Assembly: GCA_030278895.1 (NCBI GenBank)
Contig: JARXKK010000019.1
Coordinates: forward strand, 1 to 36,602
From: Acidobacteriota bacterium
GTDB lineage: Bacteria; Acidobacteriota; Thermoanaerobaculia; UBA5066
DNA length: 36,602 nt
Direction of reading: 5' to 3'
The translations under genes and the position numbers were made by a program. Under the pieces are notes generated by a model. The model searched no databases, was not told the DNA's origin, and was given only the letters and a program-made list of their open reading frames with translations. Positions 15,812 to 22,903 of this stretch are shown here, in pieces. Numbering within the stretch: position 1 is the stretch's first letter; each line of letters starts with the position of its first letter.

Positions 15812-18790
15812 CTAGATCACGAGCGGGCGGCCCGCCTTGAGCCGCATCGCGGCGCCCTCGAGGAGCTCGGCGTGCTCGCGCTCCTCCGCCTCCAGCTCGC
15901 GGTAGAGGCGCCACTCGGGCGACGCCTCGGAGAACTTGCGGCCCGTTTCCAGGAAGAACCGCCCCGCGCGCTTCTCGAGATGGACGGCGAGACGCAGCAG
16001 CGCGACGCCGTCGGCGTTCGCTGAGGGCTCGACCCCCGAGAAGACGGCGAGCTGCGCCGGGGACGGGCCTTGACCCGTCAGATCCGGCGCCTCGAGGTGG
16101 TAGCGGCGCGCCAGGATCTCCATGTGCTCGCGCTCCATCGCTGACAGCCGGGCGAAGAGCGCGACGACCTCCGGGTCGGCGCCGGACTTCTCCATGTCCT
16201 TCGCGCCGTTCGCGTAGAAAAGGACGCCGCCGATCTCGATCTCGTAGGCTTTCCGGACGGCCTCGGCGAGGGCGCCCTCCGGCGCCGCGATCTCCGCGCG
16301 CGTCTCGAACGCGCCGCCGCAGTACGGGCAGAGCCCGTACGGGAACGCGAAGCCCTCGGAGACCTTGTGGCAGGACGTGCACTGGAAGGTGAGCCGTTCG
16401 CCCGCGCAGCAGACGTAGTCCTCGCCCGCTTCGATCGGCCGGCGGCACTTCTTGCAGACGGACTCTTCGGGCACGGCCACGGCAGGAATCTTCGAGTCCT
16501 CGCGGATCACGGGGGGCCACACCCGGTTCGTCAGGTAGGAGTGAATGGCCTTCGCCGCGCGCCGGCCCGCGCCGAGCGCGAGAATGACCGTGGCGCCGCC
16601 CGTGACGATGTCGCCTCCGGCGAAGACGCCGGGAATGTTCGCGGCCTGGGTCGTCTCGTCCACGTTGATGTAGCCCTCGCCGCGCACGGAGAGGCCCGGC
16701 GTCGACCGCGCGATGACGGGGTTCGCGCGCGTGCCGAGCGCATAGATGACGGTGTCGCACTCGAACGTCTCGGTCTCGCCCGGGATCACGACGGGGCGCC
16801 GGCGGCCGGACGCGTCCGGCGGCCCGAGCTCCATCTTCTGGCACACGAGGGCCTTCACGCCGCCCTTGTCGTCCGTGACGATCTCGGAGGGGCTTCTTAG
16901 CCAGTGAAACGTGATGCCCTCTTCCTCGGCGTGGCGGAGCTCCTCGATGCGGGCCGGGGCTTCGGCCTTCGTGCGCCGGTAGACGCAGCGGACGAGCTCG
17001 GCGCCGAGGCGTTTGGACACGCGCAGGCAGTCCATCGCGGTGTTGCCCGCGCCGATGACGACGATCTTCTGTCCGAGCGTCACGGGCGTGTCCTCGTAGG
17101 GGAAGTTGTCGCCTCCCATGAGGTTCACGCGGGTGAGGAACTCGTTCGCGCTGTACACCTGCCCGGCGAATTCGCCCGGGATGCCGAGGAACGCGGGGGC
17201 GCCCGCGCCCGTTCCCACGAAGACGGCGTCGAAGCCCTGCTCCGAGAGGAGCTGCGGGATCGTGAACGTCTTGCCGATGACCTTGTTCGTTTCGAACCGC
17301 ACGCCCATGTCCTCGAGCTGCTTCACTTCGCGGTCGATGATGTTGCGCGGCAGCCGGAAGGACGGGATCCCGTACCGCAGGACGCCGCCGATGATGTGAA
17401 GAGCTTCGAAGACGGTGACGTCCGCGCCATCGCGCGCGAGGTCGCCCGCGCAGGCGAGGCCGGCGGGGCCCGAGCCCACGATCGCGACCCTGCCGATCGG
17501 GGCGTTCGCGGGGCGCGGCGGGGGCGCCGTCACGGGCGCGTGGTCGCCCACGAAGCGTTCGAGCCGGCCGATCGCGACCGAGTCCATCTTCTTCGTCTTC
17601 GTGAGAATGCACAGCGCCTCGCACTGGCTTTCCTGGGGGCACACGCGGCCGCACACGGACGGGAAGTGGTTGTTCTCGCGGATGGCCGCGGCGGCGCCCC
17701 CGAGATCGCGCACGAGGAGGTGCCGGATGAAGCGCGGGATGTCGATCGCGACCGGGCATCCCTGGACGCACGTGGGCCGGAGGCACTGGATGCAGCGCTC
17801 GGCCTCCGTCAGCGCGTCGGCCATCGTGTAGCCGAGGTTCACCTCGAGGAAGTTGTGCGCGCGCTCGTCCGCGTTCCGCTCGGCCATGTGCACCGCGTGC
17901 GGCTGGACGTCCTTCAGCTTCTTGTAATTGCGCTTCTCTTCCTCGAAGAGCTGCTTCTCCATGTTGCAGGTGTGCGCGAAGTCTTCGTTCGCTCGCGTCT
18001 CCTGCGACTTGAAGCGCTGCTGCCGCAGCATGAGCTCATTGAAGTCGATCTTGTGCGCGTCGAAGTCGGGGCCCTCGACGCACGCGAACTTGATCTCGCC
18101 GTCGACGCTGACGCGGCAGGAGCCGCACATGCCGGTGCCGTCGACCATGATCGCGTTCAGGCTCACGGCCGTCGGCACGCCGCGCGGGCGCGTGACCTCG
18201 GTGCAGGCCTTCATCATCGGGAGCGGGCCGATCGCCACGACCTCGTCGACCTTCTCCTTCGAGAGGACGTCCTCGAGCGCGGCCGTCACGAAACCCGGCC
18301 GGCCATACGTGCCGTCGTCGGTGCAGACGATCAGGTCGTCGCAGTACTTCGCGAACCTGTCCTCCCAGAAAACGAGCTCCTTCGTGCGAAAGCCGATGAT
18401 TCCCGTGACGCGGTTCCCGGCCTCCTTGAAGGCCCGGAGCTGAGGAAACACGGGAGCGACGCCGAGGCCGCCGCCCACGAGGACGACGTGGCCGACGTTC
18501 TTCACGTGGCTCGGCATGCCGAGCGGCCCCACGAAGTCGAGGAACGTGTCGCCTTCCTGGTAGGCGGCCATCATTTCCCGCGTCGTCTTGCCGATCGCCT
18601 GGATGACGATCGTCACGGTGCCCCAATCGCGGTCATAGTCCGCCACCGTCAGGGGAATCCGCTCGCCCCCTTCGCGGAGGCGCAGCATGACGAAGTGACC
18701 CGGCTGGGCAGCCCGGGCCACGTCGGGCGCGTAGACGTCCCACAGGAAGGTCGAGTCCGAAAACTGGTGGCGGCGGACGATCTGGTACAT
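15812..18790 (-). CDS. Fused NfnA/SudB-NfnB/SudA oxidoreductase with C-terminal zinc ribbon and rubrerythrin-like domain
   Basis: 992 residues in one frame. Residues 1-280: ferredoxin-NADP+ reductase-like NfnA/SudB unit with FAD/NAD domain (GGGLGVAPVFPQLRAF) and a [2Fe-2S] site, GMCGSCRVSVDGEIKFACVE (Cys about 217-238). Residues 300-760: NfnB/SudA or glutamate-synthase small-subunit-like unit with two [4Fe-4S] motifs (CIQCLRPTCVQGCP about 333, VCGRVCPQESQCEALC about 380), FAD motif VAIVGSGPAGLACAGDLA and NADPH motif VIGAGNTAMDC. Residues 775-830: zinc ribbon with CKKC, CCAG, CTSC and CPYC. Residues 840-985: ferritin-like domain with two ExxH motifs (EREHMEIL, EEREHAELL). Nfn enzymes bifurcate electrons between NADH, ferredoxin and NADPH, while SudAB reduces polysulfide. 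The tail suggests peroxide- or oxygen-linked chemistry. ATG at 18790. Confidence 0.88.
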   Translation of the reverse strand: MYQIVRRHQFSDSTFLWDVYAPDVARAAQPGHFVMLRLREGGERIPLTVADYDRDWGTVTIVIQAIGKTTREMMAAYQEGDTFLDFVGPLGMPSHVKNVGHVVLVGGGLGVAPVFPQLRAFKEAGNRVTGIIGFRTKELVFWEDRFAKYCDDLIVCTDDGTYGRPGFVTAALEDVLSKEKVDEVVAIGPLPMMKACTEVTRPRGVPTAVSLNAIMVDGTGMCGSCRVSVDGEIKFACVEGPDFDAHKIDFNELMLRQQRFKSQETRANEDFAHTCNMEKQLFEEEKRNYKKLKDVQPHAVHMAERNADERAHNFLEVNLGYTMADALTEAERCIQCLRPTCVQGCPVAIDIPRFIRHLLVRDLGGAAAAIRENNHFPSVCGRVCPQESQCEALCILTKTKKMDSVAIGRLERFVGDHAPVTAPPPRPANAPIGRVAIVGSGPAGLACAGDLARDGADVTVFEALHIIGGVLRYGIPSFRLPRNIIDREVKQLEDMGVRFETNKVIGKTFTIPQLLSEQGFDAVFVGTGAGAPAFLGIPGEFAGQVYSANEFLTRVNLMGGDNFPYEDTPVTLGQKIVVIGAGNTAMDCLRVSKRLGAELVRCVYRRTKAEAPARIEELRHAEEEGITFHWLRSPSEIVTDDKGGVKALVCQKMELGPPDASGRRRPVVIPGETETFECDTVIYALGTRANPVIARSTPGLSVRGEGYINVDETTQAANIPGVFAGGDIVTGGATVILALGAGRRAAKAIHSYLTNRVWPPVIREDSKIPAVAVPEESVCKKCRRPIEAGEDYVCCAGERLTFQCTSCHKVSEGFAFPYGLCPYCGGAFETRAEIAAPEGALAEAVRKAYEIEIGGVLFYANGAKDMEKSGADPEVVALFARLSAMEREHMEILARRYHLEAPDLTGQGPSPAQLAVFSGVEPSANADGVALLRLAVHLEKRAGRFFLETGRKFSEASPEWRLYRELEAEEREHAELLEGAAMRLKAGRPLVI

Positions 18791-18854: not shown

Positions 18855-19202
18855 CTACTTGGACTTCGGGTCGCCGGGGTTCGTGCCGGCCTTGATCTCG
18901 TCGATGTTCTTCACGCCGTCGCCATCGCTGTCGAGGCCCTCGATCTTCTCGAACGCGTAGGTCTTCTTCTCGGCCTTCGGGTCGACGACGGCCTTCGCCA
19001 GGAGGTCCTTCCCGTAGGCGTTGTTCTCGTGGTCTTCCTTCTTCGGGAGAGGCTTCACGTGGCACGTCGAGCACTTGCCCAGGGAGGCTTTCGCGTCGGG
19101 ATACTTCGCCACGAACGCCTTCTGGTTGTCGAGAGTGGCCAGCATCGTCGTGGCGGCGCAGACCGCGACGAACACCGAGACCGCCATTGTCGTCTTCTTC
19201 AT
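18855..19202 (-). CDS. Small periplasmic c-type cytochrome with calcium-binding-type C-terminus
   Basis: 115 residues. The N-terminal signal peptide (KKTTMAVSVFVAVCAATTMLA) is followed by one haem-binding CxxCH (KCSTCHVKP, about residue 44). The C-terminus DSDGDGVKNIDEIKAGTNPG is a DxDGDG calcium loop of the thrombospondin type 3 kind. This domain pairing occurs in secreted electron-transfer proteins; the partner is unknown. ATG at 19202 has GGAGG upstream (minus strand). It lies 64 bp before the Nfn fusion gene in the same direction, so the two may be co-transcribed, and is divergent from a LuxR-type regulator 59 bp away. Confidence 0.82.
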   Translation of the reverse strand: MKKTTMAVSVFVAVCAATTMLATLDNQKAFVAKYPDAKASLGKCSTCHVKPLPKKEDHENNAYGKDLLAKAVVDPKAEKKTYAFEKIEGLDSDGDGVKNIDEIKAGTNPGDPKSK

Positions 19203-19261: not shown

Positions 19262-19756
19262 ATGAATCAGGGCGTCGCCACCCCGCTCCCGAGTGTCTCG
19301 GCCGCCCAGGAGCCGCCCGCGCTCGCCACCGACGGGAGAGACCGGATCGTCTACGTCAACCCGGGCGCCGAGCGCATGCTGGCCGTTCGCGAGCGCGACG
19401 TGAACGGGCACGCCCTGACGGAGCTCTTTTCGCACGGCCTGCGGGACCTGATCGTGGGGGCCGCCATTCTGAAGATCCCGGGAGACGGGCCACGCGGCGC
19501 GAGAACGGTTTACATCCTGCGCGGTTTTTCGGCGCTCTCGACGTCCTGCCCGCTGTCCAAGCGCGAGCACGAAATCGTTGCTCTCCTGGCCGACGGTTAC
19601 GCGGCCCTCAACATCGCGGCCCGCCTGAACCTGTCTCATGCGACCGTCCGCAATCACATCCAGAACGCGCTTCGCCGGCTGGAACTTCACAGCCAGGTCG
19701 ATCTCGTCGCGCTCGCGCTGCGCCGCGGATGGGTCGATCGGCAGGAGCCGCGCTAG
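19262..19756 (+). CDS. PAS-LuxR-type transcriptional regulator
   Basis: 164 residues. The N-terminal half resembles a short PAS domain (DGRDRIVYVNPGAERMLAVR, about 23-45). The C-terminal half is a LuxR/FixJ helix-turn-helix (about 95-160): LSKREHEIVALLADGYAALN, IAARLNLSHATVRNHIQNAL. No receiver domain is present, so it probably senses a signal directly through the PAS domain or a ligand. It is divergent from the cytochrome gene and may control it and the Nfn fusion; this is inference from position. ATG at 19262 follows AAAGGA. It converges on the transglutaminase gene with a 19-bp gap. Confidence 0.83.
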   Translation: MNQGVATPLPSVSAAQEPPALATDGRDRIVYVNPGAERMLAVRERDVNGHALTELFSHGLRDLIVGAAILKIPGDGPRGARTVYILRGFSALSTSCPLSKREHEIVALLADGYAALNIAARLNLSHATVRNHIQNALRRLELHSQVDLVALALRRGWVDRQEPR

Positions 19757-19775: not shown

Positions 19776-21884
19776 CTACCGGGACCGGCCCGCCGCGCCA
19801 CGGAACTCGTCGAGCAGCGCCCGCAAGCGGCCCTCTTCTCCCGGCGCGGGTTCGAGGCCTCCGAAGGACTCGCGGACGTAGGCGCGCACGATCGCTTCGG
19901 CGGGCCTCGCCGCGGCCGGGCCGAGAGTCGCGGCCGCGGCGAGGGTCTCGGCAGGAACGGAGGCGGGCGTGAGCGGCGCGCCGAGCCGGTGGAGAGCCTT
20001 CTGGAGGCGGCGGTAGGCCGCCGACGCGGGCGCGAGGCCGCGCGTCTTCCACGAAACGCCGAGCCCGCGGCGCCCAAGAACGATCAGGAAGAGCACGAGG
20101 AGCAGGGCCGCGACGAGCGCCGCCGCGGGCAGGCGACGCAGAAAAGGACTCAGGCCGGCGCCGGCGCGACGGAGGGCGGAAAGGGCGCCGCCGCCCGCCT
20201 CCCGCAGCTTTCGGAGAAGCTCGGCCTGGTCGCCCTGCCCGAAGGACAGGACGAAGCGGTCGTAGAAGAACTCGAGCCCGTCGGTCACCTGGCGAAGACG
20301 CTGCGCGAGCGGGACGGTCTCGAGACCCGGCTGTCCGATCGAGGGCGTCGGGTCGAACGTGACCCAGCCGCGGGCCGGACCGCACCACACCTCGACCCAG
20401 GCGTGGACATTCTGGCCGCGGACGAGAACGTATTTCCCGAAGGCGCCGAGCTCGCCGCCCAGAAAGCCGGTCACGAATCGCGTGGGAACGCCCACCTCCC
20501 GGAGGAGCAGCGCCATTGCCGTGGCGAACGTCTGGCAGTGGCCCTTTCGGCGGTTCAGGACGAAGTCTTCGACGGCGTTCGGGCCGCGCGGCTGGAGGTC
20601 CAGCTCGTACGTCCAGCTCCGGAGCACCGCTTCGATCTCGCGCGCGGCGGCCTCGGGATTCGCCGCGGGTTCGATCCCGCCGAGCTGTGAGAGCGCGAAC
20701 GAGCGCAGCGCCGCCGACCCGGCCGGCGTCCGCGCTTCGGCCACGTCGCCGGGCTCGAGGTCCGCAATCGGGCGGGTCCCGTAGGTCACGGCGTACTGGA
20801 TGGTGCGGTCCGGCTCGAAGGACAGGCGCAGATTGCGGGAGGCATCGCGCTCGACCCAGGCGTGACCGGGGTTGCGAAACGAGGCCTCGGAGAGACGCAG
20901 CGCGTTTCCGAGCAGCGGATAGGGCAGGTAGCGCGTCTGGATCGGGGTGAGGTCGATCGTCATCGCGGTGCCCCCTCCGGCGCCACGCGGCGCGAGAGGA
21001 ACGAGCGCCCCGAAGCCGGAACGGGCGCCGGCCGCTGAACGGTCCGGCGGTTTCTTCCACACCCCGTTCTCCCACCGGGACAGCGCCAGCGTCCGGAGTC
21101 TCAGGACCGCAGCGTCGCCCCCGCCGAGGGCCTCCTCGCTCGTGATCCGGAGGAAGACGCGGTCGCTCTGCTTGAGCGCGCCGAACAAATCCGGGTCCAC
21201 GCTTTCCGAAAAACCCGTCGTGATCTCGCGCCCCGCCTCGGCGCCCCTCACGTAAGGCGCCTTGAGACGGGGAAGGAACAGAAAGAGCGGGATGGCGAGG
21301 AGAACCGTGGACAAGACCGAGGTGACGAGCGGGCCCCTGCCCGGAAGAGAACGCGCCGTGCGGTCGCGGCTCCATTCCTCGGGAGCCCCGGAGAGGTCCC
21401 GCCAGAGGGCCCACTTCACGAGCACGCTCCAGCCCGCGAAGGCCATGAGCAGCACGTAAAGAAGGATCGCGTAATGGAACGACGTCGAGACCGACGCGAC
21501 GAACAGGAGGCCCGAAAGGACGAGCGCCAGCGACAGATCGCGCTCCTTGCGGATGGCCGCGAGCTTGAAGAGCGTCGTGAAGAGGAGAAGGTGGAGCATC
21601 GTCTTCAGGAGCGTCTGACTCCCGAAACGCACGTCGAGGAAGATGATGGGAACGTAGAGAAGTCCGGCGAGATTCAGGACGCGATTCCCGAGGCGCGGCA
21701 CGCTCCCCCGGCGCACGCGCGCCAAGAGCAGCGCGAGGACGCCGAGGTAGGCGAGCAGCACGGCGAGCTCGAGGGCGTTCGCGAAGAAGAGCGGAACCGG
21801 CGCGAGAAACGCGAGACCTCCGAGTGCGAGAAGGCGCTCCTTGAGGAAGGGGATTTCAGCGGCGGCCGGGGGCCCTGTGCTCAT
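19776..21884 (-). CDS. Transglutaminase-like membrane protein (DUF3488 + transglutaminase core)
   Basis: 702 residues. ATG at 21884 overlaps the preceding DUF58 stop (ATGA); an upstream open extension is rejected. The N-terminus has about six membrane segments (residues 15-220), followed by a periplasmic DUF3488 region. The transglutaminase catalytic triad is Cys about 449 (KGHCQTFATAMALLLREVG), His about 493 (NVHAWVEVW) and Asp about 510 (TFDPTPS). A further membrane segment (AALVAALLLVLFLIVLG, about 600) precedes a cytoplasmic tail. The moxR-DUF58-transglutaminase trio is widespread; its role in envelope quality control or proteolysis is poorly known. Confidence 0.92.
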   Translation of the reverse strand: MSTGPPAAAEIPFLKERLLALGGLAFLAPVPLFFANALELAVLLAYLGVLALLLARVRRGSVPRLGNRVLNLAGLLYVPIIFLDVRFGSQTLLKTMLHLLLFTTLFKLAAIRKERDLSLALVLSGLLFVASVSTSFHYAILLYVLLMAFAGWSVLVKWALWRDLSGAPEEWSRDRTARSLPGRGPLVTSVLSTVLLAIPLFLFLPRLKAPYVRGAEAGREITTGFSESVDPDLFGALKQSDRVFLRITSEEALGGGDAAVLRLRTLALSRWENGVWKKPPDRSAAGARSGFGALVPLAPRGAGGGTAMTIDLTPIQTRYLPYPLLGNALRLSEASFRNPGHAWVERDASRNLRLSFEPDRTIQYAVTYGTRPIADLEPGDVAEARTPAGSAALRSFALSQLGGIEPAANPEAAAREIEAVLRSWTYELDLQPRGPNAVEDFVLNRRKGHCQTFATAMALLLREVGVPTRFVTGFLGGELGAFGKYVLVRGQNVHAWVEVWCGPARGWVTFDPTPSIGQPGLETVPLAQRLRQVTDGLEFFYDRFVLSFGQGDQAELLRKLREAGGGALSALRRAGAGLSPFLRRLPAAALVAALLLVLFLIVLGRRGLGVSWKTRGLAPASAAYRRLQKALHRLGAPLTPASVPAETLAAAATLGPAAARPAEAIVRAYVRESFGGLEPAPGEEGRLRALLDEFRGAAGRSR

Positions 21885-22903
21885 GCGGCGCGCTCCGGCC
21901 CGCGGCCCGCCCGGTAAACGGCGACCGCGCCGGGGATGCTCGCGGGCATCCGTCCGGGCTCCTTCGCCGGCTCGACGAGAGCGAGCGCGCGCAGGAGTCC
22001 GCGGCGATGAGCCGGGCCGGAGCCGGGCGGCACGACGAGGTCTCCGAGCAGCAATCCCACGCGGCTTCCCCGCGCGAGGAGCCGCAGGGCGAGGCCCGCG
22101 GCCTCGGAAACCGATTTCTCGAAGGCCTCGTCCCAGGCCGCGCCGGCGCCCTCCGGGCGATACGTGTCGAGCACGACGAGCGCGTCGCGGCCCTCCTCGG
22201 AGGCGCGCTCCTTCACGATGAACTTGCCCTGGCGCGCGGTCTGGGGCCAATGGACGTCGCGCGGGTCGTCGCCGAAGCCCGCCTCGCGCAGGTTGCGGAT
22301 CTCGGCGCCGCGCCCCCGGCGCCGGTCGCGCGGATCGCCGCCCTCCGCTTCGCGCGGGTCGGGCGGCACGTAGGGCACGTTCGCCGGAGCCGGGTAGACG
22401 AGGCGCTCGTCCCCGAGGGGGTGCACCCGGCCTTTTCGGAAAAGCCCGATTGGATAGCCGCTGTAAAGGAGCAGCGATTCGATGGACCGGAGGCCGCGTC
22501 TCGGGAAGACGAGGTCGACGCCGCGTTCGGCGGGCCGTGCCGGATCGAGGCGGCCGAAGAGAATCGGGGCGGCCGCGCTCGAGATCTTCACGAGAAGGGC
22601 GCGGCGCGGCAGACGGCCCCGGTTCGTCAGACGGAGCGTGAACCGCACCGGCACGCCGGCGAAGATCTCCGCGGGGCCGTCCAGCTCGACCGCGACGTTC
22701 TCCACGTTCCGCCGCGAGACGACTCCGGAGACGACGAGCGCGCCGAGGAAAAGCGAGACGAGGACGTAGAGGCCGTTGTTTCCCGTATTCGTCGCGGCGA
22801 CGGCGACGACGAGCGTCATCAGGACGAAGCCGAGTCCGACGTTCGTCACCCGGACCAGGATTCCGGGATGGAGAAGCTTCTGGAGGCGCGCGCCGAAGGC
22901 CAC
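21881..22903 (-). CDS. DUF58 domain protein (von Willebrand A-like), MoxR partner
   Basis: 340 residues from GTG 22903, which starts four bases after the moxR stop. A GTG at 22954 would overlap moxR by 47 bp. Two membrane segments near the N-terminus (VGLGFVLMTLVVAVAAT and GLYVLVSLFLGALVVSGVV) precede an Ig-like region. The DUF58 core has GAEIRNLREAGFGDDPRDVHW, IVKERASEEGRDALVVLDTY. The last carries the DUF58 Asp that corresponds to the start of a degenerate MIDAS loop. It probably works with the MoxR ATPase and the transglutaminase protein encoded on each side. Confidence 0.88.
   Translation of the reverse strand: MAFGARLQKLLHPGILVRVTNVGLGFVLMTLVVAVAATNTGNNGLYVLVSLFLGALVVSGVVSRRNVENVAVELDGPAEIFAGVPVRFTLRLTNRGRLPRRALLVKISSAAAPILFGRLDPARPAERGVDLVFPRRGLRSIESLLLYSGYPIGLFRKGRVHPLGDERLVYPAPANVPYVPPDPREAEGGDPRDRRRGRGAEIRNLREAGFGDDPRDVHWPQTARQGKFIVKERASEEGRDALVVLDTYRPEGAGAAWDEAFEKSVSEAAGLALRLLARGSRVGLLLGDLVVPPGSGPAHRRGLLRALALVEPAKEPGRMPASIPGAVAVYRAGRGPERAA

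Follow-up and report, generated by a model that had tools for sequence, protein, structure and literature searches.

Gene and domain architecture

The window, a stretch of 36,602 nucleotides from an Acidobacteriota bacterium (GCA_030278895.1, contig JARXKK010000019.1), carries on its minus strand an open reading frame of 992 amino acids (positions 15,812 to 18,790) with an ATG start and no internal stop codon. According to the ORF list and profile matches, the whole gene encodes a single chain of the order NfnS, NfnL, eight-cysteine segment and ferritin-like domain. An earlier note on this DNA, made from the letters alone, had described NfnA-like and NfnB-like halves fused in one chain with a tail, and the reading frame, the Pfam domains and the matches to Nfn structures bear this out. 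Pfam places DHODB_Fe-S_bind at residues 212-248, Fer4_20 at 310-418, Pyr_redox_2 at 434-739 and Rubrerythrin (PF02915) at 843-898, the last with 25.3 bits against a gathering cut-off of 22.8. The chain displays no signs of export and is the sole clear Nfn in the window genome.

The NfnS/NfnA-like half (residues 1-280; 17,951-18,790, minus strand, as for all features of the chain below) comprises the FAD/NAD-binding part and a [2Fe-2S] site. It scores 394.8 bits with NF004862 (cut-off 220) and matches NfnS of Pyrococcus furiosus in the sequence search (5jca_S, E 4e-92). The NfnL/NfnB-like half (residues 296-757; 16,520-17,905), with two [4Fe-4S] sites and two dinucleotide folds, matches NfnL of Thermotoga maritima in sequence (4ylf_B, E 4e-151) and structure (TMt 0.89), and reaches 554.6 with TIGR01316 (cut-off 471.75). 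A linker (residues 758-778; 16,457-16,519) of low model confidence (pLDDT about 41-48 in the full-chain model) leads to the tail, and the gene boundary of the two-gene forms described below falls here. The tail consists of the eight-cysteine segment (residues 779-824), which lies between the NfnL half and the ferritin-like domain, and the four-helix ferritin-like domain itself (residues 838-985; 15,836-16,279), in which PF02915 is matched in 36/36 tails. The model of the full chain (pLDDT 77.7, pTM 0.54) matches 4ylf_B and 5jca_S/L. At this pTM, and with the low confidence of the linker, it leaves the placement of the tail relative to Nfn undefined.

Ligands of the Nfn core

The [2Fe-2S] motif D217-x4-C222-x2-C225-x11-C237 (18,080-18,142), with its non-cysteine aspartate, lines up with 5jca_S at all four ligands, and these are present in 71/71 relatives. 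The [4Fe-4S] ligands C333, C336, C341, C345, C384, C390 and C394 together with E411 (17,558-17,794) are kept, by alignment, in 70-71 of 71. D217 and E411, the two non-cysteine ligands that set the clusters of bifurcating Nfn apart, are invariant in all 71 rows. E411 aligns with E126 of P. furiosus NfnL, a cluster-binding glutamate without which the two branches become uncoupled (PMC9503767). By its ligand inventory the Nfn half is thus a bifurcating Nfn, with the corresponding activity predicted. The small subunit of glutamate synthase, GltD, was ruled out as the closest relative: the nearest solved relatives are Nfn (46-53% identity in the structural match, versus 34-36% for glutamate synthase small subunits), and Nfn structures outrank GltD in both the sequence and the fold comparison.

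The cysteine-rich, ferritin-like tail

The tail was searched by itself in 84,980 species, each represented by a single genome. This yielded 175 places, of which the best 80 were taken and, together with the window, gave 81 loci. The four cysteine pairs that the earlier note had listed are all there (CKKC 779/782, CC 794/795, CTSC 804/807, CPYC 821/824), as are its two ExxH motifs (EREH 886-889 and EREH 970-973). The pairs form two quartets. C779/C782 with C794/C795 (16,406-16,456) likely bind zinc, and the second quartet, [FW]xCxxC-x13-CPxC (804, 807, 821, 824; 16,313-16,387), is rubredoxin-like. Putative diiron ligands are E852 on helix 1 (16,235-16,237), E886-x2-H889 on helix 2 (16,124-16,135), E939 on helix 3 (15,974-15,976) and E970-x2-H973 on helix 4 (15,872-15,883). 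All eight cysteines and these six residues are identical in 81/81 loci (best 80 of 175 places plus the window), which puts the tail motifs far beyond chance.

The model of the tail (pLDDT 84.7) has a ferritin-like fold, with ferritins giving the best E-values (0.002-0.008) and the COG1633 protein 2oh3 being covered best in the fold search (TMt 0.74). Its four helices carry the complete E, ExxH, E, ExxH set, from which we predict a diiron site, and each of the six ligands aligns with the same residue in 2fzf, a ferritin-like protein of P. furiosus. Among other profiles, Ferritin_2 matches 35/36 tails and COQ7 weakly matches 16/36 (best E 1.6e-4).

True rubrerythrins carry a further glutamate on helix 3 (ExxE). 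In the tail, its place at position 942 is taken by alanine in 81/81 cases (best 80 of 175 plus the window), while the separate rubrerythrin of the window genome has GETYE. The earlier reading of a rubrerythrin-like domain therefore stands as far as PF02915 and the E/ExxH ligands go, but with ExxA in place of ExxE the tail falls outside the true rubrerythrins. It would be premature to credit such a domain with the peroxidase chemistry of rubrerythrin, so that sensing, docking or oxygenase roles have to be weighed as well, and either O2 or H2O2 may be the preferred substrate. Where the same note proposed a zinc ribbon there are two cysteine quartets, the second of which looks at least as much like rubredoxin as like a zinc ribbon. 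Its match to the rubredoxin domain of Desulfovibrio vulgaris rubrerythrin (1ryt/1b71; WRCxxC...EG...CPxC) is weak, at E 0.005, and a HypA zinc site scores equally. The segment lies N-terminal to the helical bundle, in the same order as in reverse rubrerythrin.

Fused and two-gene forms

Among the 81 loci (best 80 of 175 places plus the window), NfnS, NfnL and the tail form one chain in 41, the tail is a gene of its own, mostly of about 211 amino acids, in 36, and truncated or frameshifted single chains make up the remaining four. In the two-gene loci, which are mostly proteobacterial, the tail gene starts directly behind a fused NfnSL gene. The two genes overlap by 4 bp in 25 of the 35 measurable cases. 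One locus, L063, breaks off without reaching the gene that precedes the tail. Wherever upstream sequence exists in this set (best 80 of 175 plus the window), the tail occurs with Nfn. Since the search was made with the tail sequence by itself, this steady association is a finding and not a product of the search design.

An assembly error, which the earlier note had named as grounds for discarding the fusion, was rejected. The same chain recurs in 41 loci (best 80 of 175 plus the window), including the finished chromosome of Anaeromyxobacter oryzae and isolate genomes, and the fusion is therefore genuine. In a rapidly built tree of the NfnSL portion, a branch with support 100 separates all tail-bearing rows from the tailless Nfn homologues, and the two-gene forms nest among the fused forms. 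Fission from the fused to the two-gene form is thus the likely direction, though not proven given the distant outgroup. In one locus from the same genus as the window genome (L112, G002:C144), about 120 bp are missing from the [4Fe-4S] region and a further, frameshifting stretch of about 194 bp from the ferritin domain. The gene may be a pseudogene and dispensable there, or the deletions may be an assembly fault. In a Rhodoferax MAG (L096:5998-8124) the separate tail and an AMP-binding enzyme form one protein of 708 amino acids.

Genomic neighbourhood

Neighbouring genes were called from open reading frames with codon scoring. A small same-direction cytochrome gene upstream, pointed out in the earlier note, does exist 64 bp from the Nfn chain (18,855-19,202, minus strand; cytochrome-like product of 115 amino acids, one CSTCH, monohaem; ORF list and profile search), but the linkage is not conserved. 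None of the other fetched loci carries a relative of the gene, and a same-strand CxxCH frame lies upstream in only 1 of 66 other loci. Its N-terminus reads as a signal peptide by eye, no predictor having been used, and the product is probably exported. Since it is not conserved and probably exported, whereas the Nfn chain is without export signs, we rejected the cytochrome as a partner; its position looks incidental and it is probably outside the system. Beyond it lie the gene for a small regulator of the PAS-LuxR type (19,262-19,756), which is oriented divergently to that of the cytochrome, and a TgpA-type transglutaminase protein with DUF4129 (19,776-21,884; longer frame 19,776-22,250).

The neighbourhood of the two-gene form is more regular. 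Pyruvate:ferredoxin oxidoreductase (PFOR) is encoded directly downstream of the tail gene in 25/36 two-gene loci, the PFOR of L080 scoring 1738.8 bits with TIGR02176. It is followed by a dihydroorotate-dehydrogenase-like protein and often by a small 4Fe-4S ferredoxin; a ferredoxin gene lies behind the tail gene in about 15 loci. These PFOR loci belong mostly to one betaproteobacterial clade and thus represent few independent events. Next to the fused forms there is no PFOR, and the fused acidobacterial form displays no conserved neighbours except a WcaJ-type sugar-transferase gene near it in close relatives. Contig 12 of the window genome (L125:193-4834, G000:C12) holds a single-chain PFOR followed by the dihydroorotate-dehydrogenase-like protein, the same pair as behind the betaproteobacterial tail gene. 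Of 25 tail-bearing genomes sampled, 20 have a match to TIGR02176 above the cut-off; within the class, PFOR occurs in 11/11 tail-bearing versus 28/50 other genomes, a weak co-occurrence because 10 of the 11 are one family. The window genome, a 3.47-Mb draft, additionally carries four haem-copper oxidase genes and the separate rubrerythrin mentioned above. No substrate-linked neighbours common to the loci were found in the neighbourhood comparison.

Two further arrangements were seen at single loci or pairs of loci. In L073 (11,617-12,394) and L075 (11,908-12,637) a second NfnS-like gene lies downstream of the PFOR operon (58-59% identity), which perhaps places a tailed and an untailed Nfn in one operon. 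In Thiocystis violacea (L103:7154-9083) the tailed Nfn is followed by both subunits of an electron-transfer flavoprotein.

Relation to known systems

A search for the exact domain order, proposed in the earlier note, recovered it as the existing NCBIfam family NF009413 (PRK12775), which matches the chain end to end (residues 1-989 on model positions 1-1003 of 1006), so that the architecture is not new to databases. The window protein scores 1570.7, below the curated cut-off of 1895 (an Anaeromyxobacter relative reaches 2100), but groups in the same clade by the tree, and is thus a divergent relative and not a formal member. The family title, "trifunctional 2-polyprenylphenol hydroxylase/glutamate synthase subunit beta/ferritin domain-containing protein", is misleading and omits Nfn. 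In the literature searched, the family name and PRK12775 led to no description of the architecture, PRK12775 appearing only in one paper, on Agrobacterium phages. What is new here is the constant pairing of tail and Nfn, including the two-gene form with PFOR behind it, and the invariance of the ligands.

With NfnAB/NfnSL of T. maritima (4YLF) and P. furiosus (5JCA) the window chain shares both halves, the cofactor ligands and the site-differentiating Asp and Glu, but its halves are fused and it has the eight-cysteine and ferritin-like tail. Fused Nfn as such is known as patterns B-D (PMC6405883), and pattern B is a single chain in the same A-then-B order. None of the four patterns of that review has a tail, and rubrerythrin and ferritin go unmentioned there, as they do in a survey of bifurcation (PMC6085437). 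In reverse rubrerythrins of Clostridioides difficile and Clostridium acetobutylicum a rubredoxin-like segment precedes the diiron bundle, an order that the tail would share if its weak rubredoxin match holds; the tail differs by its extra cysteine quartet, its missing ExxE and its attachment to a putative reductase. The closest solved relatives of the bundle are COG1633 ferritin-like proteins (2OH3, 2FZF). 2FZF shares the E, ExxH, E, ExxH ligands and the alanine at the ExxE position, but both proteins stand alone, without the Nfn or the cysteine segment of the window chain. Two systems in which a redox core is coupled to a peroxide outlet of the rubrerythrin type are comparable to the window chain with its putative outlet: Rub-Bfu, a predicted bifurcating core coupled to rubrerythrin (PMC9304861), and the hydrogenase-rubrerythrin chimera CperHydR of Clostridium perfringens, which reduces H2O2 (PMC11926857). 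Rub-Bfu is also ferredoxin- and NADH-linked, but the cores of the two are of the HydABC type (Bfu) or a hydrogenase, unrelated to Nfn.

Proposed function and alternatives

Starting from the architecture, the ligand inventory and the linkage of tail to Nfn observed in fused and two-gene forms, we infer the metals of the tail, the electron route and the substrate. We posit, at even odds (about 0.5), that the chain is an NADH/ferredoxin/NADP oxidoreductase of the NfnSL type to which an outlet for electrons to H2O2 or O2 is permanently joined. Electrons from NADPH, or from reduced ferredoxin plus NADH, would enter at the flavins and iron-sulfur clusters of Nfn, move on to an Fe(Cys)4 site of rubredoxin type in the tail, and end at a ferritin-type diiron centre where H2O2 (or O2) would be reduced to water. 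Such an outlet would keep the oxygen-sensitive, ferredoxin-linked route of PFOR and Nfn running in facultative or oxygen-exposed cells. Precedents include fused flavodiiron-rubredoxin-reductase oxidases (PMC6033852, PMC9364112) and reverse rubrerythrins, which reduce both H2O2 and O2, with turnover typically about 1-10 per second (PMC7482061).

In favour of the outlet are the complete Nfn core with its Asp ligand and E411, the invariant tail ligands with their rubredoxin-like quartet (81/81), the occurrence of the tail only with Nfn, in 41 single chains and 36 two-gene loci (both counts from the best 80 of 175 plus the window), and the PFOR behind the tail gene together with the PFOR pair and haem-copper oxidase genes of the window genome. 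The missing ExxE, the undefined tail position and the weak rubredoxin match count against it, as do the internal deletions in G002 and the energetic cost of spending low-potential electrons on peroxide.

The lack of the extra glutamate of peroxidase rubrerythrins would also suit a tail that acts as a sensor or brake, its diiron and cysteine sites responding to O2, peroxide or iron and switching Nfn/PFOR without turnover. Four of the eight tail cysteines have no obvious redox role and the tail is tightly linked to Nfn; yet six diiron ligands and a rubredoxin-like site, all fully conserved, are more than a simple sensor needs, and the known relatives of this layout are enzymes. We consider a sensor unlikely. 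Slightly less likely still is a docking or wiring module, in which the cysteine sites and the bundle bind PFOR or ferredoxin and feed Nfn, the diiron site being secondary or structural. PFOR in 25 loci and the ferredoxin gene in about 15 speak for such a role, but PFOR is not next to the fused forms and the invariant E/ExxH ligands would be superfluous in a pure docking module.

Less probable again is a reading in which Nfn serves as reductase for a diiron oxygenase or oxidase whose substrate is an organic compound or iron itself (ferroxidase). The COQ7 and Ferritin_2 matches, the ferritins returned by the fold search and the AMP-binding fusion of L096 are in its favour, whereas the loci share no substrate-linked neighbours and the rubredoxin-like segment is typical of rubrerythrins that reduce peroxide or O2. 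The NF009413 title taken literally, as a polyprenylphenol hydroxylase with a glutamate synthase beta subunit, finds backing in the TIGR01316 cut-off being reached, but is hardly credible in view of the higher identity to Nfn and the Nfn-type ligands.

Implications

More tentatively than the outlet itself, and as less likely than not, we propose from the sequences a "Rub-Nfn" class: Nfn enzymes capable of bifurcation by their ligands, with a hard-wired diiron outlet to peroxide or oxygen, fused or in two genes, that would occur across Acidobacteriota, Myxococcota and Pseudomonadota and let facultative aerobes run PFOR/ferredoxin metabolism with oxygen present. If true, this would give Rub-Bfu, itself a prediction, a counterpart built on Nfn, and the reading as a tailed Nfn would replace the misleading database name of NF009413. 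Nfn is viewed as belonging to anaerobes, and surveys name a single aerobe with Nfn (PMC6085437, PMC6405883). The diiron outlet would, if true, account for the persistence of low-potential ferredoxin metabolism in organisms that respire oxygen.
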